From: Clostridia bacterium
Lineage (GTDB): Bacteria; Bacillota; Peptococcia; Peptococcales; BICA1-8
Direction of reading: 5' to 3'
Assembly: GCA_012720075.1 (NCBI GenBank)
Contig: JAAXZE010000181.1
Span: 1-34,307, forward strand
DNA length: 34,307 nucleotides
Shown: piece by piece, positions 3,399-27,722 of the stretch
Numbering within the stretch: the first letter of the stretch is position 1
Layout: every line of letters starts with the position of its first letter
Notes under the pieces: generated by a model
What the model was told of the DNA's origin: nothing
What the model saw: the letters and a program-made list of their open reading frames with translations, nothing else
The model's database searches: none
Made by a program: the position numbers and the translations under genes

Positions 3399-4646
3399 TT
3401 ATGAGCCCAATTTCTGACGAAAAGTTTCCGTCAGTAAGGGCAAGATTTTCTGAAAGTCACCCACAATACCAAAATCGGCAATTTTAAAAATGGGTGCTTC
3501 CGGGTCTTTATTGATGGCGACAATAACATCGGAAGTCTGCATCCCTACCAGATGCTGGATAGCGCCGGAAATACCCACCGCTATGTAGATTTTAGGCCTT
3601 ACCGTTACCCCTGTCTGTCCAACCTGGTGGGCTGCATCAATCCAGCCTGCTTCTACCGCCGCCCTGGAGGCGCCGACGGTGCCGCCCAAAACCTTGGCTA
3701 AATCAAAGAGCAATTGGAAGTTTTCTTTGGTGCCCAAACCACGGCCTCCGGCTACGATAATATCCGCCCGGTCCAAATATACGGCGCTGCCCCCTTGGGC
3801 AACAAAATCCAATACTTTGGTGGCAATGTCTTCTTCTTTTAAGTCGATGGTCTCTTCCACCAGGGTGCCCCGGCGACCTTCTTCCCGCTTTGGCATAGGC
3901 ATTACCCGGGGCCGGACACTGGCCATCTGGGGCCGGTGATTGCGGCAGACAATAGTGGCCATGACATTACCGCCAAAGGCCGGCCTGGTCTGTAAAAGCA
4001 ATCGGGTTTCCGGTTCAATTTTTAACTGGGTACAGTCGGCCGTCAGTCCCGTTTCTACATTAGTGGCAACATGGCCGGCCAAATCCCGGCCCTGGGTAGT
4101 AGCGGCCATCAGGACTATTTCCGGTTTATACTTTTTAATGAGCATACTTAAAGTTTCCGAATAAGGTTCGGTACGGTAATCCTTCAATACCGGATTATCT
4201 ACCAAAAATACTTTATCAGCACCATATTCATAGACTAGATTTACTTTGTCCTTAATATTGTATCCCAAAAGAACTCCGGCCAAATCCACTCCTAACTCAT
4301 CGGCCAATTGCCGGCCGGCTCCCAACAGTTCCCAGGATACATCGGCAATTTCTCCATAGTTTTGCTCAATCAAGACCCAAACCCCAAAATAAGCGTTAAC
4401 GGCAGGGTTTTCCGGCTTAAATTCCTTGATTTTTTCTACTGCTTTTTTAACCGTTTCCTGGGGCGCCTTTTTCCCTTCTAAAGACAAAGCCATGGTGGGG
4501 CAAACAGCAACACATTCACCACAGTCGGTACATTTATCGGGATCAACCGTCGCAATACCGTCAACCAATTCCAAAGCGTCAAAGGGGCAAGTCTGAACAC
4601 AGGCCCCGCAGCCTATACAATTTTTCCTGATTACTTCAACGGTCAA
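3399..4646 (-). CDS. fixB: EtfA/FixB, electron transfer flavoprotein alpha with N-terminal ferredoxin
   Basis: The protein has 415 aa. Residues 1-55 form a 2x[4Fe-4S] ferredoxin domain (C10, C13, C16, C20 and C39, C42, C45, C49, each group ending in CP). The rest is EtfA, with the FAD-binding C-terminal part [29 protein letters not shown] and [10 protein letters not shown]. EtfA subunits with such an extension occur in bifurcating complexes of anaerobes, such as caffeyl-CoA reductase EtfA, so ferredoxin contact or an internal relay is likely. The start is TTG, fixed by AAAGGAGGTCAAAAATTG. A 315-bp family B repeat array separates it from fixA, which is unusual inside this operon. Confidence 0.93.
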
Positions 4647-4686
4647 TTTTTGACCTCCTTTCTTTGCTTCCGGGCAAATATTTTAG

Positions 4687-4946
4687 GTCAGAATCCTTTC
4701 GGGAAACTTATTGCGTCCGAAATACCAAGAAGTAATTTTTTCCGTCTGACAGCTATCTCATGGGTAACTTTTCGGGTCCGGCCATACTTTCCGGTCTATC
4801 CTTTGGGTCTGACATCTGCTTTGAGGTTACCTGTCCGGTCCGATTTGTCTGACACAAAATACTTACCCAGAAGTTGATTCTGACCAAAAATTATATACCA
4901 ATTGCCATTTTCTGACCCTTAAGCTAAACCCCTTAGTACGTCAGAC
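4687..4946. repeat. Family B periodic GTCTGAC array, copy 1
   Basis: GTCTGAC or close variants (GTCAGA, GTCCGA, TTCTGAC, GTCAGAC) occur at 4687, 4715, 4744, 4776, 4807, 4847, 4879, 4911 and 4940. Most steps are 28-32 bp and one is 40. The left units share a CTTT-GGG core between heptamers. The right units share AGCTAAAC-CCTTAG, which looks like the inverse orientation. It fills the gap between the fixA stop (4962) and the fixB start (4646). No gene is seen in it. Confidence 0.8.
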
Positions 4947-4961
4947 CCAATAGCTAGATCC

Positions 4962-5780
4962 TTAAGCATTAGGTATTACTTCCAACGGAACCAATTTTTC
5001 CACCAAAGTTTTTACCGCTTCCTCCGGGTTTTCCTCACCGCCCGGAATAATTTCCCCTCCTCCCCGCTCCGGAGGGGCAAAGATATTGCGAACCATGGTT
5101 GGGGAGCCCTTTAAACCCAGTTTGCTTTCATCCACCTCTAATTTATTTTTGTCCAAAATTGCGCATTGATATCGGGCCGCCCTAATCAGATTGTCAAGGC
5201 TGGCATAACGGAGCTCATTAATATCTTTTACAACCGTTAATAAGGCGGGCAATTTGGTTTGGGCCAGCTCTTTACCGTTTTGTACCTTGCGGTAAACCTT
5301 AATGGTCCGTTTTTCCTGGTCCAATTCCACAATTTCCATGACATAGGTCAACTGGGGCAGATTCATCCTGGCGGCAATTCCGGGACCTACCTGTGCCGTA
5401 TCACCGTCTATGGCCTGCTTTCCACAGAGCACCAAATCAACGCCCTCTTCTTTTTGCAGCTTTTCTATTGTTTTAGCCAGGACATAACTGGTAGCCAGAG
5501 TATCGGCTCCGGCAAAGGCCCTGTCACTTAAAAGAATGGCTTCATCGGCACCGTAACCTATAGCTTTTTTTAACGCCTCCAGAGCCATGGATGGCCCCAT
5601 GGTGATTACCGTTACTTTACCGCCATATTTATCCTTAAGTTGTAAAGCAGCTTCTAAAGCGTGAATATCATAAGGGTTAATTATGGCCGGCACACCTTCT
5701 CTCACCAAGGTATTGGTTTCCGGGTCAATTTTTACCTCGGTGGTATCAGGAACCTGTTTCATACACACCACATAATGCAT
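4962..5780 (-). CDS. fixA: EtfB/FixA, electron transfer flavoprotein beta
   Basis: This 272-aa EtfB subunit starts MHYVVCMKQVPDTTEVKID, typical of the family. It contains NPYDIHALEAAL, GYGADEAILLSDRAFAGAD and the signature CGKQAIDGDTAQVGPGIA. It pairs with FixB. In bifurcating members it holds the second FAD, at which NADH is oxidised. An in-frame ATG lies 30 nt upstream, but GGAGGG at about 12 nt spacing and the conserved N-terminus favour the start given. It is the first gene of fixABCX. No clear promoter was found just upstream, although the DnaA-box cluster lies 160-330 bp upstream. Confidence 0.93.
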   Translation of the reverse strand: MHYVVCMKQVPDTTEVKIDPETNTLVREGVPAIINPYDIHALEAALQLKDKYGGKVTVITMGPSMALEALKKAIGYGADEAILLSDRAFAGADTLATSYVLAKTIEKLQKEEGVDLVLCGKQAIDGDTAQVGPGIAARMNLPQLTYVMEIVELDQEKRTIKVYRKVQNGKELAQTKLPALLTVVKDINELRYASLDNLIRAARYQCAILDKNKLEVDESKLGLKGSPTMVRNIFAPPERGGGEIIPGGEENPEEAVKTLVEKLVPLEVIPNA

Positions 5781-5940
5781 TGAGCATCCCTCCTTCTTTA
5801 ATTTTTTCAAAAGCCAAATATTTATCCATTTTTTTCTTTCCCAAAAAACTCATTCACTTTTTGCAATTTATTGGCATATTTATTATTACCCTGAATACTC
5901 ATTAATAAAAATCAAAAAACAGAAAAATGCTTGGCCAGGG

Positions 5941-6111
5941 CTATCCACATTATCAACAAATTTGCCCACAGGAAAAACCGCTTAAAACTTAACCAAACGC
6001 GCATTTTCCACATTATCCACAAAATAATGTGAAATTTGTCATGGAAAAAATTCCACATAGCCAAACCCTTAATTTTTCTCGTTATGCACAGTTTTATCCA
6101 CATTATCCACA
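5941..6111 (+). promoter_or_regulatory. DnaA-box cluster
   Basis: Three perfect TTATCCACA boxes lie at 6013-6021, 6094-6102 and 6103-6111. Four more have one mismatch: CTATCCACA 5941-5949, TTATCAACA 5950-5958, TTTTCCACA 6004-6012 and TTATGCACA 6082-6090. All point the same way. Six form three exactly abutting 9+9 pairs. Such density is typical of oriC or of DnaA-titrating or regulatory clusters. No dnaA, dnaN or mnmG is seen in the window, so a secondary cluster is more likely than the origin. Confidence 0.75.
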
Positions 6112-6193
6112 GGGGAAATTCCACAAAACATCCGTTCTTCCGTTTTGTTAACCGCTTTACTAACTAACATTTTGCGACAAAATTAGTGATTGA

Positions 6194-8389: not shown

Positions 8390-8476
8390 GAGTGTGTTAG
8401 TGTATAAGTGTGTTAGTGGGTAAGTAAATCCTGTGCCCAGGATTTCGTGCCATCGTGTCACCGTGACGTCGTGACG
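8390..8476. repeat. Period-8 microrepeats beside family A copy 2
   Basis: 8393-8424 reads in octamers (GTGTTAGT, GTATAAGT, GTGTTAGT, GGGTAAGT). 8450-8476 reads on the minus strand as octamers GTCACGAC, GTCACGGT, GACACGAT. A CCTAGCGAAGCGAAACC motif follows at 8494-8510 and a close copy at 8719-8735. The whole 8369-8769 gap is repeat-derived; no gene is seen. Confidence 0.75.
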
Positions 8477-8529
8477 CCGAAGCGGAAGTTCAACCTAGCG
8501 AAGCGAAACCTAATTATTATTTAGGCGAT

Positions 8530-8713
8530 TTAACGGGTGGCATCCCATGCATGCAAAATTACTCCTGACGCATCTGCATCTGAGCATAGCTTAAAGGATG
8601 CATCTTCTTTTGGGTAACTTGTTTGGGATGCATCAGTTTAGATTGTCATTCATTGGATGCATCATGCATTTTGCTTGAAAACAAATGCATCCCGAAAGAT
8701 TTGCATTCATCGA
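8530..8713 (-). repeat. Family A periodic palindrome array, copy 2 (long form)
   Basis: This is an inverted copy of the element at the left edge of the window. GATGCATC or a one-base variant recurs every 29-30 bp. 8571-8670 matches 42-141 with one mismatch in 100 bp. It also keeps the outer part ending in ATGCATGGGATGC, which copy 1 has lost or which has diverged. Confidence 0.85.
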
Positions 8714-8769
8714 TTGAAACCTAGCAAAGCGAAACCTTAACCTTTTTTCTGTAAAACGGAGCGCAGCTC

Positions 8770-10624: not shown

Positions 10625-10750
10625 CGATGAAAGTAATCCTTTGGTCATGCGTCTGCTTTCAAGTGAAATGCATGATGCATCCTTTAAGCTATACTCAGGT
10701 GCAGATGCATCAAGGATTATTTCACATGCATGGGATGCAACCCAATAAGT
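10625..10750 (+). repeat. Family A periodic palindrome array, copy 3 (short form)
   Basis: It shares CGATGAAAGTAA, the AAATGCATGATGCATCC core, TTTAAGCTATACTCAG and ATGCATGGGATGCAACCC with the other copies. It lacks the two internal units (about 59 bp) found in copies 1 and 2, with a clean junction at GATGCATCC. Confidence 0.8.
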
Positions 10751-10761
10751 CATCTTAAGTC

Positions 10762-10798
10762 TAGTCACACTTTCACACTTAAACACTAACACACCTAC
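10762..10798. repeat. Period-8 GTGTWAGT-like tract
   Basis: The minus strand reads in steps related to GTGTTAGT, GTTTAAGT and GTGTGACT. The tract abuts the stop codon of the spo0F-like gene. Confidence 0.6.
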
Positions 10799-13255: not shown

Positions 13256-13299
13256 GGTGTAAGTGTGTTAGTGAGAAAGTGCGTAAGTGTTTAAGTGTT
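13256..13299 (+). repeat. Period-8 GTGTAAGT tract
   Basis: Consecutive octamers read GTGTAAGT, GTGTTAGT, GAGAAAGT, GCGTAAGT, GTTTAAGT. This is the clearest example of the GTGTWAGT microrepeat. The 13232-13568 gap holds only repeats; no gene is seen. Confidence 0.75.
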
Positions 13300-13320
13300 G
13301 CTAGATTGCAGATGATTTTT

Positions 13321-13440
13321 GGGGATGTATCTCATGCATGTGAAATAATCCCTGAAGCATCTGCATCTAAGCATAGCTTAAAGGATGCATCATGTATTTG
13401 GCTTGAGAGCAGATGCATCCCCAAAGGCTTGCTTCCATCG
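13321..13440 (-). repeat. Family A periodic palindrome array, copy 4 (short form)
   Basis: Read on the minus strand it runs CGATGGAAGC, GGGATGCATCTGC, ACATGATGCATCC, TTTAAGCTATGC, GATGCTTCAGGG and CACATGCATGAGATAC. This is the same order as copy 3, again without the two extra units. Confidence 0.8.
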
Positions 13441-13568: not shown

Positions 13569-15716
13569 TTAGCATCGCATAGTCAAGGAAATCCTCCCCC
13601 TATTAATATCTACCTCCAAGACTTTAACCTTAACAATATCTCCAACGGCAACTACTTCCATCGGATGTTTCACATATTTTTCCCCCAATTGGGAAATGTG
13701 AACCAATCCGTCCTGTTTGACGCCGATATCGACAAAGGCGCCGAAATCAACCACGTTTCTTACCGTACCTTGAAGTTCCATGCCGGGCTTTAAATCTTCC
13801 ATGGTAAGAACATCGGTGCGGAATAAAGGCGGAGGCAACTCCTCCCGAGGGTCCCGACCGGGTTTCTGCAAAGCTTCCACAATGTCCTTTAAAGTTGGTT
13901 CACCGACAGCTAATTTTTCCGCCATTTCTTTAATGTTTACTTCCGTTAAGGCCTGGCGAATTTCCGGCATTTTTTCCGAGTTTAAATCATTTAACCGGAA
14001 TCCCAAAAGCTCCAACAACTTTTCAGCCGCCGTGTAAGATTCGGGATGAACGGGGGTATTGTCCAAAGGATTTAAGCCATCGGCAATCCGGATAAAACCT
14101 GCACATTGAGTAAAGGCCTTTTGCCCTAATCTAGGCACGTTTAACAGCTCTTCCCTTTTTAAAATCTTGCCTTTTTCTTCGCGATACTTAATAATCCCAT
14201 CGGCGGTAGACTTGGTTAAACCGGCCACATACTGAAGCAGTGCGCTGGAAGCGGTATTTATTTCCACTCCCACTGAGTTGACACAAGTTTCCACTACTCC
14301 TGCCAATGCTTCATCCAGTTTTTTGGGGGTTACATCATGCTGATACTGGCCTACCCCCACTGCTTTGGGCTCGATTTTCACCAATTCGGCCAACGGGTCC
14401 TGTAAACGGCGGGCAATGGATACGGCGCTACGGAGCGATAAATCATAATCAGGAAATTCCTCTTTGGCCAGCTTGGAAGCCGAATAGACAGACGCACCGG
14501 CTTCAGAAACGATAATGTATTGTACTGCCGCCGGCAAATCTTTTATTAAATCGGCAGCCAAAAGTTCCGTTTCCCGGGACGCGGTGCCATTGCCGATAGC
14601 GATAATATCTACCTTCCATTTATTTATAAGCCGAGCCAGTACTTCTTTGGCCTCCTGCTTTTGGTTTTGGGGCGGATGGGGATACATGACCCCTACTTCC
14701 AGAACTTTTCCGGTTTCATCGACTACCGCCAGCTTGCATCCGGTCCGATATCCCGGGTCAACACCCAGAACCACTTTTCCTTTGACCGGAGGCTGTAAAA
14801 GGAGGTTATGCAAATTTTGCGCAAAGATTTTAATAGCTTGTTCCTCAGCCACACTTGTCAACTCATTTCTTATCTCCCTCTCTATGGCCGGGGAAATCAG
14901 CCTCTTATAGCCGTCTTTTATGGCAGCGACCAACACATCCTGACAGCTTTTTGCTCCTGGCTCCAAATACTTTTTGCTAATCCTTTCAATGATTCTTTCT
15001 TCAGGTTGAAGAATCTTAACCTGCAAAGCTTTTTCCTTTTCTCCCCTGTTAACGGCCAGAATCCTATGGGGCGGTATCTTTTTCACCGGTTCCTGATAAT
15101 CATAGTACATCTCATAAGGGGTGATGGCCTCAGGGTCTTGGGCTTTGGAACAAATTAACCCTTCCGCCCAAACCAGATTGCGGGCGATTTTTCTTATTTC
15201 CGCATCCTCGGCAACTATTTCGGCCACGATATCCTGAGCCCCTGAAACAGCATCCTCTATACTCTCTACTCCCAATTCGGCATTGATAAAGCTTTGGGCC
15301 AGTTGGGCCGGGGTATCCACGGTATTTCCGTCCAAAAATAATAAGGCCAGAGGTTCCAGGCCTTTTTCCTTAGCAACACCGGCCCTTGTTTTCCTTTTAG
15401 GCCGATAGGGAAGATATAGGTCTTCCACTTCCTGCAAAACCTGGGCTTCAAGTATGGCTTTCTCCAGTTGGGGCGTCAGCTTCTCTTGTTCCCTTATGGA
15501 ATTAAGCACTTCTTCTTTTCGCTTGGTTAAATTTCTTAAATAGCCCAACCTTTCTACCAACTGCCGTAATACCGTCTCGTCCATTTCCCCGGTCATCTCT
15601 TTCCGATAACGGGCAATAAAAGGAATGGTGTTCCCTTCATCCAACAGTTCTATTGTTTTAGCAATTTTATCTTGAGGCCAATTCAATTCTTTGGCCAGTA
15701 CTACTGCGTAATCCAT
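13569..15716 (-). CDS. tex: Tex, S1-domain RNA-binding transcription accessory protein
   Basis: The 715-aa protein has the complete Tex layout: a helical N-terminal region (IPFIARYRKEMTGEMDE), a YqgF/RNase H-like domain (VLGVDPGYRTGCKLAVVD, near residue 325), helix-hairpin-helix motifs (VNSVGVEINTASSALL and LLNVPRLGQKAF), and a C-terminal S1 domain (LQGTVRNVVDFGAFVDIGV, about 645-715). Tex binds nucleic acid and influences transcription and RNA turnover. It ends only a few residues after the S1 core (GRISLTMRC), next to the repeat island. The length is near normal, so it is probably intact. The RBS AAGGAGG lies 6 nt before ATG. Confidence 0.95.
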   Translation of the reverse strand: MDYAVVLAKELNWPQDKIAKTIELLDEGNTIPFIARYRKEMTGEMDETVLRQLVERLGYLRNLTKRKEEVLNSIREQEKLTPQLEKAILEAQVLQEVEDLYLPYRPKRKTRAGVAKEKGLEPLALLFLDGNTVDTPAQLAQSFINAELGVESIEDAVSGAQDIVAEIVAEDAEIRKIARNLVWAEGLICSKAQDPEAITPYEMYYDYQEPVKKIPPHRILAVNRGEKEKALQVKILQPEERIIERISKKYLEPGAKSCQDVLVAAIKDGYKRLISPAIEREIRNELTSVAEEQAIKIFAQNLHNLLLQPPVKGKVVLGVDPGYRTGCKLAVVDETGKVLEVGVMYPHPPQNQKQEAKEVLARLINKWKVDIIAIGNGTASRETELLAADLIKDLPAAVQYIIVSEAGASVYSASKLAKEEFPDYDLSLRSAVSIARRLQDPLAELVKIEPKAVGVGQYQHDVTPKKLDEALAGVVETCVNSVGVEINTASSALLQYVAGLTKSTADGIIKYREEKGKILKREELLNVPRLGQKAFTQCAGFIRIADGLNPLDNTPVHPESYTAAEKLLELLGFRLNDLNSEKMPEIRQALTEVNIKEMAEKLAVGEPTLKDIVEALQKPGRDPREELPPPLFRTDVLTMEDLKPGMELQGTVRNVVDFGAFVDIGVKQDGLVHISQLGEKYVKHPMEVVAVGDIVKVKVLEVDINRGRISLTMRC

Positions 15717-15752
15717 TGTTTCCTCCTTGTTTCTTTTGGGTTAACATTGAGG

Positions 15753-16050
15753 GTCTGATAATTGCTTTAGGGTTGAAATTTCCGTCTGATATACGTCCTG
15801 GCAATCTTCTTGCGTCTGACCATTACTTTTGGGCAAAATGTCCCGTCTGACATTACCCGCGGGCATTGATTTCCCGTCGGGCAAAATCTTTTCGGTTAAT
15901 ATTAATGGTCTGATAACCAATAGCCATTGTCAGACCAAAAAAATTACTTTAAAGTCTTTTCTGACGGAATAGTTAAACCCTCAAGCCATCTCTGACGCAA
16001 AAGCTAAACTCCTTAGCCTATTGTCTGACGGATTAAATCGACTTCCTGAC
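15753..16050. repeat. Family B periodic GTCTGAC array, copy 2
   Basis: This is the most regular array. Heptamer-like sites lie at 15753, 15784, 15814, 15845, 15876, 15908, 15929 (inverted), about 15959, 15990 and 16022, steps of 30-33 bp apart from one of 21. Left units share CTTT-GGG-AAAT-TCCC between heptamers. Right units share AGCTAAAC-CCTTAGCC, so the two halves look inverted relative to each other. It fills the 336-bp tex-asparaginase gap; no gene is seen. Confidence 0.85.
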
Positions 16051-16052
16051 TA

Positions 16053-17048
16053 TCAGAAAGTCACCCTAATCATGCCAATTACTTCATTGCGGAAATTCCT
16101 AATCCGGGGATGATAATGGGAATCCAAAGCTTCTTTATCCTCAGCGGTTAAAAGCCCTAGCCTGTCCAATACTCTAAGGATAACAGGGTCCATGGCTCTG
16201 GCCCCGCCATCCTCTATCTTAATGGCTATCCCTAAACCCTTTTCCGGTATTCCGAGGCAGAACACTCCTTCGGAGCCATCCTTGGCAACTATTTTGGTTC
16301 CCAACTGTTCTGCCAATACTGTAGTAAAGCGGCCAGAACCGGCAATTAATTTGGGATTTTCACCCATTATTCTGGCTAGCTTCAGACAAGCTTCTTGCCG
16401 GGAAGAAGAAAATTTATCAGGACGGACAAAGTTTGCATAAGCCAAAGCCATGGCTTTAACCGGCATACCGAAGACCGGAACTCCACAACCGTCAATGCCG
16501 ATAATTATTTCCTCTTTTTTCATTTCCGCCAGTTCGGCCATTGTCTCCAGCATAATTTGCTGTACAGGGTGCTCCAAAAGGTAATAATCATTCAGACTAT
16601 AGTTTTCATGGACCGCAATAGCCAGCATCCCCGAATGCTTGCCGGAACAAGGGCAATGGATAGGACCCGGTTTGATATTCTCGGCCGCCATTTTAGCAGC
16701 AGTGGGCTTATGAAGGGGCTTAGTGGTCCCACAAAGTAAATTATCGGTAGAGAGGCCTATTTTTTTTAGTATTCCATTTACCGCTTCTTGATGTTCCGGC
16801 TCACCGCTGTGGGAGGCGGTGATTACCGCCAGTTCTTGCTCACTTAAGCCAAACCTTTGGGCGGCTCCCCTTTCTATGACGGGGACGGCCTGCATCGGTT
16901 TGGCAGCAGAACGAATATAGGTACGGTACTGGGGGTCCCCTACCGCAAAAACAGTTTTTCCGCTGGTATCTACTACCACAACTACACCCCGATGGGTACT
17001 TTCGACCATCTCTCCGCGAGTAACTTCCACCAGTTTACCGGTTTCCAC
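16053..17048 (-). CDS. Asparaginase, rhizobial type (Asparaginase_II family)
   Basis: This 331-aa protein belongs to the family typified by the Rhizobium etli thermolabile asparaginase, not the E. coli AnsA/AnsB fold. Signatures: RSAAKPMQAVP, TASHSGEPEH, CSGKHSGMLA and GIDGCGVPVFGMP; the SxxK and the cysteine/serine-rich motifs form the active site in that family. It would hydrolyse L-asparagine to aspartate and ammonia. The start is GTG, 3 bp after the C26 peptidase stop. AAAGGAG lies 14 nt upstream, rather far, so coupling to the upstream gene may help. Its stop codon touches the last family B unit. Confidence 0.85.
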   Translation of the reverse strand: METGKLVEVTRGEMVESTHRGVVVVVDTSGKTVFAVGDPQYRTYIRSAAKPMQAVPVIERGAAQRFGLSEQELAVITASHSGEPEHQEAVNGILKKIGLSTDNLLCGTTKPLHKPTAAKMAAENIKPGPIHCPCSGKHSGMLAIAVHENYSLNDYYLLEHPVQQIMLETMAELAEMKKEEIIIGIDGCGVPVFGMPVKAMALAYANFVRPDKFSSSRQEACLKLARIMGENPKLIAGSGRFTTVLAEQLGTKIVAKDGSEGVFCLGIPEKGLGIAIKIEDGGARAMDPVILRVLDRLGLLTAEDKEALDSHYHPRIRNFRNEVIGMIRVTF

Positions 17049-21354: not shown

Positions 21355-21732
21355 CTACCTATCCCCCTCTAAAACCACCATAGCCACAGCGTATTCACGA
21401 CAGTGGCTAAGACTTACATGGATTGTATGAACACCTAATTCTTGGGCTTTTCTTTGTGCTTTGCCATAAGTAATAACCTTAGGTTTGCCCAGGGAATCAT
21501 TAATGATTTCTATATCCTGCCACCCAAATTCTCTGAAGCCGGTTCCCAAAGCTTTGGCTACCGCTTCTTTGGCGGCAAACCTGGCCGCTACAGAGGGGAA
21601 GTAATTCCCGGTATTTTGGCAGTAATCCATTTCCCTGCCGGTAAAAACCCGCTGGACCAGCTTAGGCCTGGTCTGCACGGCCTTTTTGATTCTGGATATT
21701 TCAATTATATCAGTTCCAATACCTATTATCAT
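21355..21732 (-). CDS. acpS: Holo-[acyl-carrier-protein] synthase
   Basis: The 125-aa enzyme transfers 4'-phosphopantetheine from CoA to acyl carrier protein. It begins MIIGIGTDIIEISRI, which includes the metal-binding aspartate. RFAAKEAVAKALGTG carries the catalytic glutamate, and HVSLSHCREYAVAMV closes the fold. The RBS AAAGGAG lies 7 nt before ATG. It is the first gene of the acpS-nnr-alr-mazEF cluster, with a repeat-bearing gap between it and glmM. Confidence 0.95.
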   Translation of the reverse strand: MIIGIGTDIIEISRIKKAVQTRPKLVQRVFTGREMDYCQNTGNYFPSVAARFAAKEAVAKALGTGFREFGWQDIEIINDSLGKPKVITYGKAQRKAQELGVHTIHVSLSHCREYAVAMVVLEGDR

Positions 21733-21818: not shown

Positions 21819-21975
21819 CACAGGTCACAGATCACAGGGCGCAAAACCTGATACTTTAACCTGTCAGCACATATCAGGCGGGATATTTTGACCCCTTAGT
21901 TATGTCAGACGCAAAACATTCACCCTTAAGCATTGTCTGACCAAAACTTACTACTTAAAAGTCCGTTGTCGGACC
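21819..21975. repeat. Family B periodic GTCTGAC array, copy 3 (short), with heptamer repeat
   Basis: GTCAGAC-like sites lie at 21873 (degenerate), 21904, 21935 and 21968, steps of 31, 31 and 33 bp. CTTAAGCATT and CCCTTAGT blocks resemble copy 1. Just upstream, three heptamers (CACAGGT, CACAGAT, CACAGGG, 21819-21839) form a separate short tandem. The 21733-21994 gap contains no gene. Confidence 0.7.
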
Positions 21976-21994
21976 CCAAATATTAACCCAAAAG

Positions 21995-23332
21995 CTAATT
22001 CAGTTCTTTCTCAATCACCATCGCAATACCTTTCGTGATTTCCTCTAACTCTCTTTGATCATTACCTTCGGCCATGACCCTAATCATCGGTTCGGTTCCG
22101 GAAGGTCTTACCAATATCCGCCCCCGCTTGCCCAGTTGTTTTTCTGCTTGTTGAACAACCTGCTGAATGGCTGCATTGTTTTTCCAGGAATTTTTATCTT
22201 TAACCCGGACATTGATTAATACCTGGGGCAATCTTTCCATAAGAGCGGCCAGTTCCGATAAAGGTTTGCCGGTTTTTCTCACTACCTCCAGAAGCTTGAG
22301 GGCGGTGATTATCCCGTCACCGGTAGTATTATGATTTAAGAAGATAATATGGCCTGATTGTTCTCCTCCCAGAACCGCCCCTATTTCCTGCATTCTCTCC
22401 AGTACATATCTATCGCCCACTTTGGTTTCTTCCACTTCAATGCCATACCGCTCACAGGCCTGCTTGAGCCCCAGATTGCTCATAACGGTAACAACCACTT
22501 TATTGCCTGCCAATAAACCTTGCCGTTTCAACTGCAGGGCACAGGCCGCCATAATTTGGTCTCCATCCAATAACCGGCCGGCCTCATCAACAGCCAGCAA
22601 ACGGTCACTGTCACCGTCATGGGCAATTCCTAAATGGGCACCCTCTTTAAGAACAGCCTCCTGCAAAGCCTCCAAATGGGTAGACCCGCAACCGGCATTG
22701 ATATTCAGACCGTCGGGCTGATCAAAAATACTGATAACTTCCGCTCCCAAGTCTCTCAATAAACCCGGGGTTATGGGGGAAGCGGCCCCATTGGCGCAGT
22801 CCACTACTATCTTTAAACCTTTTAAGTCAACGTCAATGGCTTCTTTCAAAAATTCTTTATAAAGTTCAATACTGTTGGTGACATTCTCAACCCTGCCAAT
22901 ATTCGCTCCGGTTGGGTAGGGAATTTTATCCATCTCATTAAATATAAGGTGTTCTATTTTTTCTTCCAGCTCATCGGAGAGTTTGTAACCCTCATGATTG
23001 AAAAATTTTATTCCGTTGTCTGCAGCCGGATTATGGGATGCCGAAATGACAACCCCGGCCATGGCTTCCAATTTTCTTGTCAAATAAGCTATCCCTGGGG
23101 TTGGCATAACCCCTAGTCTAAGAACATTTACCCCGGCAGAGCAAATACCGGCTATCAAAGCACTTTCCAGCATATCGCCTGAAATCCTGGTATCCTTTCC
23201 TATCACTATTGCTTTTTTCTTATCCAGGGGATTGAGTAAATATGCCGCAGCCCGCCCTAACTTATAAGCTAATTCCGGCGTTAATTCCGAATTGGCTTGC
23301 CCTCTTACGCCATCAGTTCCAAATATTTTCAC
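21995..23332 (-). CDS. glmM: Phosphoglucosamine mutase
   Basis: The 445-aa enzyme converts glucosamine-6-phosphate to glucosamine-1-phosphate for UDP-GlcNAc. It begins KIFGTDGVRG. The phosphoserine loop is VVISASHNPAADNGIKFF near residue 100, the metal loop is HDGDSDRLLAVD, and the phosphate-binding loop is RPSGTEPMIRV near the C-terminus. The start is GTG, with AAGGAGG 7 nt upstream. It is last in the cdaA-cdaR-glmM operon. In other Firmicutes GlmM binds and inhibits CdaA, which links wall precursor supply to c-di-AMP. Confidence 0.96.
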   Translation of the reverse strand: MKIFGTDGVRGQANSELTPELAYKLGRAAAYLLNPLDKKKAIVIGKDTRISGDMLESALIAGICSAGVNVLRLGVMPTPGIAYLTRKLEAMAGVVISASHNPAADNGIKFFNHEGYKLSDELEEKIEHLIFNEMDKIPYPTGANIGRVENVTNSIELYKEFLKEAIDVDLKGLKIVVDCANGAASPITPGLLRDLGAEVISIFDQPDGLNINAGCGSTHLEALQEAVLKEGAHLGIAHDGDSDRLLAVDEAGRLLDGDQIMAACALQLKRQGLLAGNKVVVTVMSNLGLKQACERYGIEVEETKVGDRYVLERMQEIGAVLGGEQSGHIIFLNHNTTGDGIITALKLLEVVRKTGKPLSELAALMERLPQVLINVRVKDKNSWKNNAAIQQVVQQAEKQLGKRGRILVRPSGTEPMIRVMAEGNDQRELEEITKGIAMVIEKELN

Positions 23333-26479: not shown

Positions 26480-26842
26480 ATGTGGCTTCCCTTATTAGGG
26501 CTGTTATTTGGTGCTATTATAGGGTCCGCTATTTCTTTTGAAATACCGGTAGTCTATGTAAAGTATATGTCGGTGGCCGTTTTGGCCTCCCTGGACTCTG
26601 TCTTTGGAGGTATAAAAGCTGTCTTAGAAGATACCTTCGACGGTTCGGTCCTGTTAACCGGTTTTTTTACCAACGCCCTTTTGGCAGCCCTATTAGCCTA
26701 TTTGGGAGACAGACTGGGTGTTGACTTATATATGGCAGCGGTATTTGCTTTCGGGGTAAGACTTTTCCAAAACTTAGCCGCAATTCGGCATTATCTGTTG
26801 GACCGGCACATCAAAAACTACAAAGAACGCCTGGAGAAATAA
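26480..26842 (+). CDS. sbp: Small basic family protein (DUF1290, Sbp)
   Basis: The 120-aa membrane protein has about three hydrophobic segments (LPLLGLLFGAIIGSAISFEI, YMSVAVLASLDSVFGGI and FTNALLAALLAYLG) and a basic C-terminal end (RHIKNYKERLEK). It matches the Sbp/DUF1290 family that sits between DUF881 genes next to ftsA/ftsZ in Bacilli. The role is unknown. The RBS is AGTAGGTG, 6-7 nt before ATG. A family B array separates it from the second DUF881 gene. Confidence 0.88.
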   Translation: MWLPLLGLLFGAIIGSAISFEIPVVYVKYMSVAVLASLDSVFGGIKAVLEDTFDGSVLLTGFFTNALLAALLAYLGDRLGVDLYMAAVFAFGVRLFQNLAAIRHYLLDRHIKNYKERLEK

Positions 26843-26895
26843 ACAAATTTGTAGTTAAAAAATAAGGCAGCAATTCTTATGGGCAAAAATTTTTC

Positions 26896-27000
26896 GTCTG
26901 ATGATACTTTTATTTAAATATTCCCCGTCAGACAATTTCTTTTTGGTTAAAGTTTTGCGTCTCGACGGAATAGTAGTATGGCTCAAAATCTCAACCCTTG
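26896..27000. repeat. Family B periodic GTCTGAC array, copy 4 (short)
   Basis: GTCTGAT lies at 26896, GTCAGAC at 26927, GTCTCGAC at 26959 and a degenerate TCTCAAC near 26988, a spacing of 29-32 bp. GGGCAAAAATTTTTC before the first site matches the inter-heptamer core of copy 2. It lies inside the DUF881-sbp-DUF881 group. Confidence 0.7.
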
Positions 27001-27026: not shown

Positions 27027-27722
27027 ATGAACAAAAAAAATTGGCAAATCCCAATCACTATAGTATTAGTATTTTTGGGTGTTTTATTGTCCGCACAATT
27101 TCAAACCCAAGCCCGGGTATTATCGGATTTATCAATGCAAAAAACCGAAGACCTGATTGCTATGGTTAGGAACCTGAGCGACAAAAGAATGCAATTGGAA
27201 AGAGAATTGCGGGAAACCCAAACCAAGTTGCGGGATCTAAGAAACTCCACTTCCGATGAACAAAACATAAAAAACAATCTCCTGGCAGAATTGAACAGAT
27301 TAAAATTAATAAATGGTGCTGTTGAGGTCAAAGGTCCCGGTTTAAGGATAACTTTTTATGATAATTCCCCAATTCTTTATGTTGACATCGTCAGCATGAT
27401 CAATGAACTTTGGGCCGCCGGAGCCGAAGCCATTGCCGTCAATAACGTGCGCATTAACGTCCATTCCAGTTTCTTTTATACAGAAACGGAAAATGACATG
27501 TTTATTACTTTAAATCACCAGCCTTTAAGCTATCCTATTACCATCACTGCTATCGGAGACCCCAATACTTTGGAAAAAGGTTTGACATTACCGGGCGGTA
27601 TCATTGATAATCTGGCCTTGTTCGGAGCTTTTCCCATTCTGGAACGTAAAGAGGAAATTATTGTTCCGGCTGTAGAAACTCCTCCTGTTTTTATAGAAGC
27701 GGAAATTGCCAAAAAACCTTAA
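27027..27722 (+). CDS. DUF881 membrane-anchored protein, second paralogue
   Basis: This 231-aa protein has the same plan as the gene at 25753: an anchor (WQIPITIVLVFLGVLLSAQF), a coiled coil (KRMQLERELRETQTKLRDLR), then a DUF881 domain (GPGLRITFYDN, AAGAEAIAVNNVRI, ITAIGDPNTLEKGL). The paired paralogues suggest a heteromeric assembly around Sbp; that is inference. GGTTGGTGAAG precedes ATG. It is probably the last gene of its transcript. Confidence 0.88.
   Translation: MNKKNWQIPITIVLVFLGVLLSAQFQTQARVLSDLSMQKTEDLIAMVRNLSDKRMQLERELRETQTKLRDLRNSTSDEQNIKNNLLAELNRLKLINGAVEVKGPGLRITFYDNSPILYVDIVSMINELWAAGAEAIAVNNVRINVHSSFFYTETENDMFITLNHQPLSYPITITAIGDPNTLEKGLTLPGGIIDNLALFGAFPILERKEEIIVPAVETPPVFIEAEIAKKP

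Follow-up and report, generated by a model that had tools for sequence, protein, structure and literature searches.

Repeated sequences between bacterial genes are usually explained as hairpins or as REPs driven by a transposase. The described elements that appear to come closest in their working to the repeat family analysed here are the BIMEs, extragenic multi-site elements that have been reported to bind several proteins (PMC2817692). Like BIMEs, our repeats are extragenic and present in many copies per genome, and each element carries several regularly spaced sites, with both orientations represented. However, the REPs of a BIME are imperfect palindromes that alternate in orientation, whereas the units described below are same-sense within an arm and the arms always converge, such that all 49 two-armed arrays consist of a run of + units followed by a run of − units. 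The unit also differs in its length of 31 bp and its 7-bp core, and four Y1 loci revealed no linked RAYT.

REPINs, for which compensatory changes, a capacity to form hairpins and an association with RAYTs have been described (PMC3116915), share with the present arrays an extragenic position and an inverted pair of conserved ends around a less conserved spacer. The arms here instead avoid likeness to one another and hold 2–11 units each, and neither a RAYT (Y1, PF01797) flanked by the repeats, at the four Y1 loci examined, nor compensatory pairing between arms was found. The TAACTGA heptamers of Beggiatoaceae, which are nearly all direct repeats and mostly lie a few nucleotides upstream of start codons (PMC4679880), offer another parallel, namely a conserved intergenic heptamer that is grouped in sets, occupies more than 100 loci and is biased towards one lineage. 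Our heptamers differ in lying 31 bp apart, in converging arms that start at the stop codon of the upstream gene. The likeness to CRISPRs (a short conserved word, regular spacing and variable sequence between) is a resemblance only. Near-identical repeats of 20–50 bp with unrelated spacers were not seen; the conserved word here is 7 bp long, the ‘spacers’ have a consensus, the halves are inverted and the arrays occupy dozens of loci in housekeeping operons. Among open-licence papers we found none describing a 31-bp GTCWGAC repeat family, and the family is filed here as a variant of the bacterial interspersed intergenic repeats.

The repeat unit and the arrays of the window

The window is the whole stretch of 34,307 nt that was analysed. 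The original prediction placed in it four arrays of the heptamer GTCTGAC, repeated at steps of about 31 bp, and all four are present. The word occurs exactly 11 times (1.1 expected in shuffles), each time inside an array, and the density of heptamers with at most one mismatch is 18-fold higher inside the arrays than in the rest of the window. Twelve pairs of near-exact heptamers lie 29–33 bp apart, compared with a mean of 0.19 and a maximum of 2 in shuffles, and the commonest spacing is 31 bp, so the periodicity withstood the comparison with shuffled sequence that had been proposed as a check. The heptamer is also not as frequent inside coding regions, which had been the other ground for doubt. 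In one related genome (G003), only 3 of 183 units fall in called ORFs despite 86% of the sequence being coding.

In two respects the description had to be amended. The heptamer is real, but the repeat is a unit of about 31 bp in which AATACTTnnGGGTnAAnATTTTGC precedes GTCWGAC; weaker conserved positions lie upstream and the heptamer forms the 3′ end. Furthermore, bare GTCTGAC is not enriched across the genome, with 157 occurrences in the whole 2.64-Mb window genome vs 154 of the reversed word, whereas the spaced pair of heptamers is (31/31 matches vs 5/4 in the reversed control, allowing up to 2 mismatches). The GTC-n-GAC core is a 7-bp palindrome while the whole 31-bp unit is oriented, and orientation was called from the 24-bp part upstream of the heptamer.

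Units were detected with weight matrices and with R1, a three-unit covariance model based on sequence only. Array 2 lies between the L-asparaginase II gene upstream (16053–17048, − strand; Pfam PF06089) and tex downstream (13569–15716, − strand; Tex, YqgF-like, HHH and S1 domains by Pfam). Its left arm (15729–15914, + strand), found by weight matrix and matched by R1, holds six + units with heptamers at 15753, 15784, 15814, 15845, 15876 and 15908, which gives spacings of 31, 30, 31, 31 and 32 bp. The right arm (15929–16053, − strand; weight matrix) holds four inverted units, with heptamers at 15929, 15959, 15990 and 16023 (spacings of 30, 31 and 33 bp). Array 1 is flanked by an etfB-type gene upstream (4962–5810, − strand; Pfam ETF) and an etfA-type gene with a ferredoxin domain downstream (3399–4646, − strand; Pfam ETF, ETF_alpha and Fer4). 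Five + units make up its left arm (4663–4813, + strand; heptamers at 4687, 4715, 4744, 4776 and 4807; weight matrix, with an R1 match at 4664–4751), and four inverted units its right arm (4847–4970, − strand; heptamers at 4847, 4878, 4910 and 4940; weight matrix).

The remaining two arrays were detected with one arm each. Array 3 (21873–21998, − strand) has four inverted units, with heptamers at 21873, 21904, 21935 and 21968 (weight matrix, with an R1 match at 21903–21995), between glmM upstream (21995–23332, − strand; NCBIfam TIGR01455 above cut-off) and acpS downstream (21355–21732, − strand; NCBIfam TIGR00516 above cut-off). Array 4 (26872–26965, + strand) has three + units, with heptamers at 26896, 26927 and 26959 (weight matrix, with an R1 match at 26873–26962), between a DUF1290 gene upstream (26480–26842, + strand; Pfam PF06947) and a DUF881 gene downstream (27027–27722, + strand; Pfam PF05949). 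The array-bearing junctions of the window are thus etfB–etfA, asparaginase–tex, glmM–acpS and DUF1290–DUF881. The window gave no match to Rfam 15 at the gathering score.

The weight matrices were applied to sampled loci of three genera, represented by the window genome (G000), by JASKKI, isolate DJKA51_ANT-F21_bin.3 (G003), and by Clostridiaceae bacterium BRH_c20a (G004). The paper reporting the BRH_c20a MAG (PMC5067608) lists it among new genera. These loci, which were sampled for carrying units, gave 164, 183 and 159 units in G000, G003 and G004, respectively, vs 0, 2 and 12 in reversed sequence; gene calls were simple longest-ORF calls, all genomes are drafts and the titled ones are MAGs. 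The unit is sharpest in G004, where CAATA..TATTG can be seen by eye inside some units, and most degenerate in the window genome. Mean spacing is 31.1 bp in G000 (sd 1.2), 30.6 bp in G003 (sd 1.0) and 31.2 bp in G004 (sd 0.8), values that would be compatible with sites lying about three helical turns apart on one face of the DNA. In G003 a short step tends to be followed by a long one and vice versa, and successive spacings are positively correlated in G000. A candidate reading of GGGTnAAnATnTTGC as the GG-N10-GC promoter spacing of sigma-54 was dropped, given that the GC is often CC or GG in the window genome.

Arrangement among genes and genomes

Arrays are intergenic and lie mostly between co-directional genes, inside operons. 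In G000 and G003, a median of 22–23 nt separates the stop codon of the upstream gene from the start of the array, a distance so short that the outermost block frequently overlaps that codon. Array 3 overlaps the stop codon of glmM in this way, at a junction that was compared in five genera. At one locus of G003 (L087, 50–85), the outermost unit reaches into the coding end of a gene that we take to be iron-alcohol-dehydrogenase-like, and the heptamer provides its stop codon (GTC TGA C). When gaps of 100 bp or more are considered in G000 and G003, arrays occur in 0 of 34 divergent gaps but in 43 of the 199 remaining gaps (Fisher p 0.0012). The corresponding count for divergent gaps in G004 is 3 of 25.

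The inversion between halves that had been predicted for the long arrays is correct for arrays 1 and 2, and it proved to be general. Both orientations are present in 49 of 81 arrays, and every one of these reads + units first and − units second, the sole exception to this order being one − hit at threshold score located 250 bp outside a two-armed array. The sizes of the two arms are correlated (rho 0.40, p 0.005). The 5′ and 3′ arms have similar consensus sequences, and heptamer variants are equally frequent in both. Many arrays in G004 are one-armed, and their inner end often reads GTCTGACACAAGCATTGCATG or a similar sequence, beyond which other repeat modules follow. In one-armed G004 arrays such as L056, L058, L064 and L067, this inner end looks like a terminator-like tip of the arm, and the centres of G003 arrays carry the inverse of the same pattern.

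R1 matches number 67 in G000, 53 in G001, 14 in G002, 98 in G003 and 157 in G004, which places units in all five genomes, representing five genera, of the taxonomic family. None of 41 other genomes of the same class gave a match, and a search of 300 genomes of the phylum with stricter filters produced one match outside the family, on contig C31 of G102. This 6-kb contig is assigned to another class, but its last 99 bp (L173, 6078–6176) match the first bases of a G003 contig (L087, 1–99) with 100% identity, so that it was most likely mis-binned from the G003 assembly. No copy was found in viral contigs by pattern search or in plasmids and phages by blastn, and a scan of contigs anchored on the asparaginase protein gave no match.

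The four junctions of the window carry arrays in G000, G003 and G004, and hence in three genera, although the tex array of G003 sits behind a different upstream gene. Orthologues of tex are present in five genera. The tex and DUF1290–DUF881 junctions have no array in G001 and G002, whereas glmM–acpS has a divergent version of the array in G002 and other repeats in G001; etfB was not found in G001 or G002. The likeness between orthologous arrays (13 pairs) is only a little greater than that between unrelated ones, and therefore the positions are inherited while the units turn over.

Copying between arrays and candidate functions

Segments of more than 150 bp are copied between loci in either orientation, and in one case a 5′ arm and the 3′ arm of a different array some 11 kb distant agree at 153 of 165 bases (93%), over a stretch that includes five heptamers. 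When arms of different arrays are compared, 5′ arms share about as much with 3′ arms as 5′ arms or 3′ arms do among themselves. After copying, mismatches in the GTC-n-GA core amount to 3.1% in G003 and 1.2% in G004, whereas the spacers reach 20.1% and 23% (G000 yielded one usable pair only). The core values are biased somewhat downward, on one side of each comparison, since unit calling demanded a fair heptamer. However, heptamer bases 4 and 7 serve as an internal control for this bias, and in G003 they drift at the spacer rate. Further constrained positions of the unit are −6, −13, −20 and −19, with −6 as fixed as the core.

The original prediction had offered two alternatives, a protein-binding array or a self-amplifying degenerate satellite, and each half has found support. 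The satellite half matches the turnover and the copying of long segments. The binding half would accord with a core that stays nearly fixed after copying and with arms that are interchangeable between transcription orientations. A core that is retained while spacers drift points to sequence-specific recognition, and a symmetric core with a free centre, the same in both transcription orientations, is what we would expect of the target of a dimer that binds double-stranded DNA. We give nearly even chances to the proposal that this is a family-specific intercistronic repeat in which each 31-bp unit is a putative double-stranded DNA binding site for a protein. The convergent order in 49 of 49 arrays, the phasing, the interchangeable arms, the presence throughout the family and the junctions common to three genera all speak for it. 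The protein would contact the two-fold symmetric GTC-n-GAC together with T at −6, G at −13 and CT at −20/−19, and adjacent sites about three helical turns apart could let it bind cooperatively. Facing each other, the two arms might then organize the region between cistrons into a compact nucleoprotein block, whose role would most likely be architectural. The arrays could persist by vertical descent, unit duplication and gene conversion, with near-perfect palindromes within one array being weeded out.

Several observations sit uneasily with putative binding sites. The avoidance in G000 and G003 of divergent gaps, which offer promoters only, is unusual for transcription factor sites, and a dimer on a palindromic core would not alone impose a convergent polarity. 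Copying between arrays could homogenize words without any function, but a constraint confined to the core would not be explained in this manner. Should a protein read the core, it would add a new member to the nucleoid-associated or boundary factors. A possible but doubtful elaboration is a lineage-specific system for organizing or insulating the chromosome, in which one putative DNA-binding protein coats dozens of convergent, helically phased arrays at gene boundaries inside operons. Sequence would turn over in such a system while polarity, spacing and core are selected and palindromes within an array are purged.

An explanation at the level of RNA would have the inverted arms form a long imperfect stem in the mRNA between cistrons, where it protects or terminates the transcript on one side. 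Arrays are probably transcribed, because they lie between co-directional genes that are about 15–40 nt apart in G001 and G002, and on the sense strand they are more stable than shuffles (mean z about −5.4). This folding advantage arises because the arms are inverted. The hairpin would also fit the avoidance in G000 and G003 of gaps that lack the 3′ end of a gene. However, arms swapped between arrays pair at least as well as the two arms of one array, which in two genomes are significantly less alike, with a mean likeness of 2.89 vs 4.20 for permuted arms in G003 (P < 1/5000) and 5.00 vs 5.91 in G004 (P=0.0012), low values to which short-read assembly may contribute by dropping arrays with near-identical arms; the difference is not significant in G000 (P=0.21). 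The centre bases of partner heptamers match at chance (21/50 and 30/63 vs 21.0 and 32.2 expected), and wobble-type variants show no bias between the 5′ and 3′ arms. The advantage of sense over antisense folding, seen in 25 of 33 arrays, is close to that of shuffled sequence and reflects largely base composition. After the swapped-arm, covariation and wobble-asymmetry tests we rejected the RNA hairpin as the main selected feature, and we consider a hairpin explanation unlikely.

The second half of the predicted alternative, taken on its own, is a neutral intergenic satellite that grows and is homogenized by slippage and gene conversion, has no function and is restricted to non-coding gaps by the harm that insertions would do elsewhere. 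Tandem multi-unit duplication is evident at locus L059, where spacings of 30, 33 and 32 bp recur with a period of three, and the copying between arrays, the weak likeness of orthologous arrays and the presence in similar gaps of other repeat families with no relation to this one would all be natural outcomes of such a process. We nevertheless judge it rather improbable, as drift leaves unexplained both a mismatch in GTC-n-GA that is 6- to 19-fold lower than at neighbouring bases and a polarity that is convergent in 49 of 49 arrays.

It is also conceivable that the arrays are non-autonomous mobile elements of the REPIN or MITE type, their arms being the transposase-binding ends, as in the multi-site inverted ends of some transposons, with the transposase acting in trans. 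Convergent multi-site arms around a variable centre, segments common to several loci, orthologous junctions that are filled in some genomes and empty in others (tex and DUF1290–DUF881 in G001 and G002) and genes with a Y1 transposase domain in four of the five genomes are consistent with this scheme. The filled and empty junctions are too diverged for target-site duplications to be read. However, G002 has no Y1 gene and the window genome only a 27-residue Y1 fragment, and no exact GTCNGAC lies near the four Y1 loci examined (G004 has 18 further Y1 matches). Consequently, a RAYT-driven REP is not supported. Conserved transposon tips were likewise looked for, and the outer-end consensus is that of an ordinary unit with no conserved extra tip. 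Unit number per arm varies from 2 to 11, the junctions are common to three genera, and the pattern search of viral contigs and the blastn searches of plasmids and phages returned no copy. We find a mobile element quite improbable.

The repeat family therefore fits neither a hairpin nor a transposase-driven REP, given arms that invariably converge, a likeness between the two arms of an array that falls below chance in two of the three genomes and a core fixed through copying. With dozens of arrays, and with orthologous junctions that are filled in some sister genera and empty in others, the question of a protein that reads the core is directly testable.

Other repeats in the same gaps

A second intergenic family is formed by the palindrome GATGCATC within the conserved context TTTAAGCTATGCTCAGATGCAGATGCATC and is present in the window at 14–160, 8527–8715, 10639–10722 and 13314–13440. 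Repeats of the GATGCATC type occupy the glmM–acpS gap of G001, where the window genome has GTCTGAC units. The gaps that harbour this family in the window also contain tandem repeats of about 8 bp, GTGTTAGT or ACACTAAC, at 186–277, 8391–8425, 10766–10798 and 13257–13298. Palindromic repeats of the AACCTAGCGAAGCGAAACC type are found at 8492–8522 and 8718–8748, as well as at loci L136, L165 and L166. Within G004, AACCTAGCGAAGCGAAACC-type repeats and 8-bp repeats of the GTGACCAG type are nested in the centres of GTCTGAC arrays, where they form inverted layers around one core. Finally, one gap of the window (5990–6115) holds several TTATCCACA-like words, with tandem copies at 6002–6021 and 6094–6111, in an arrangement that resembles a DnaA-box cluster.
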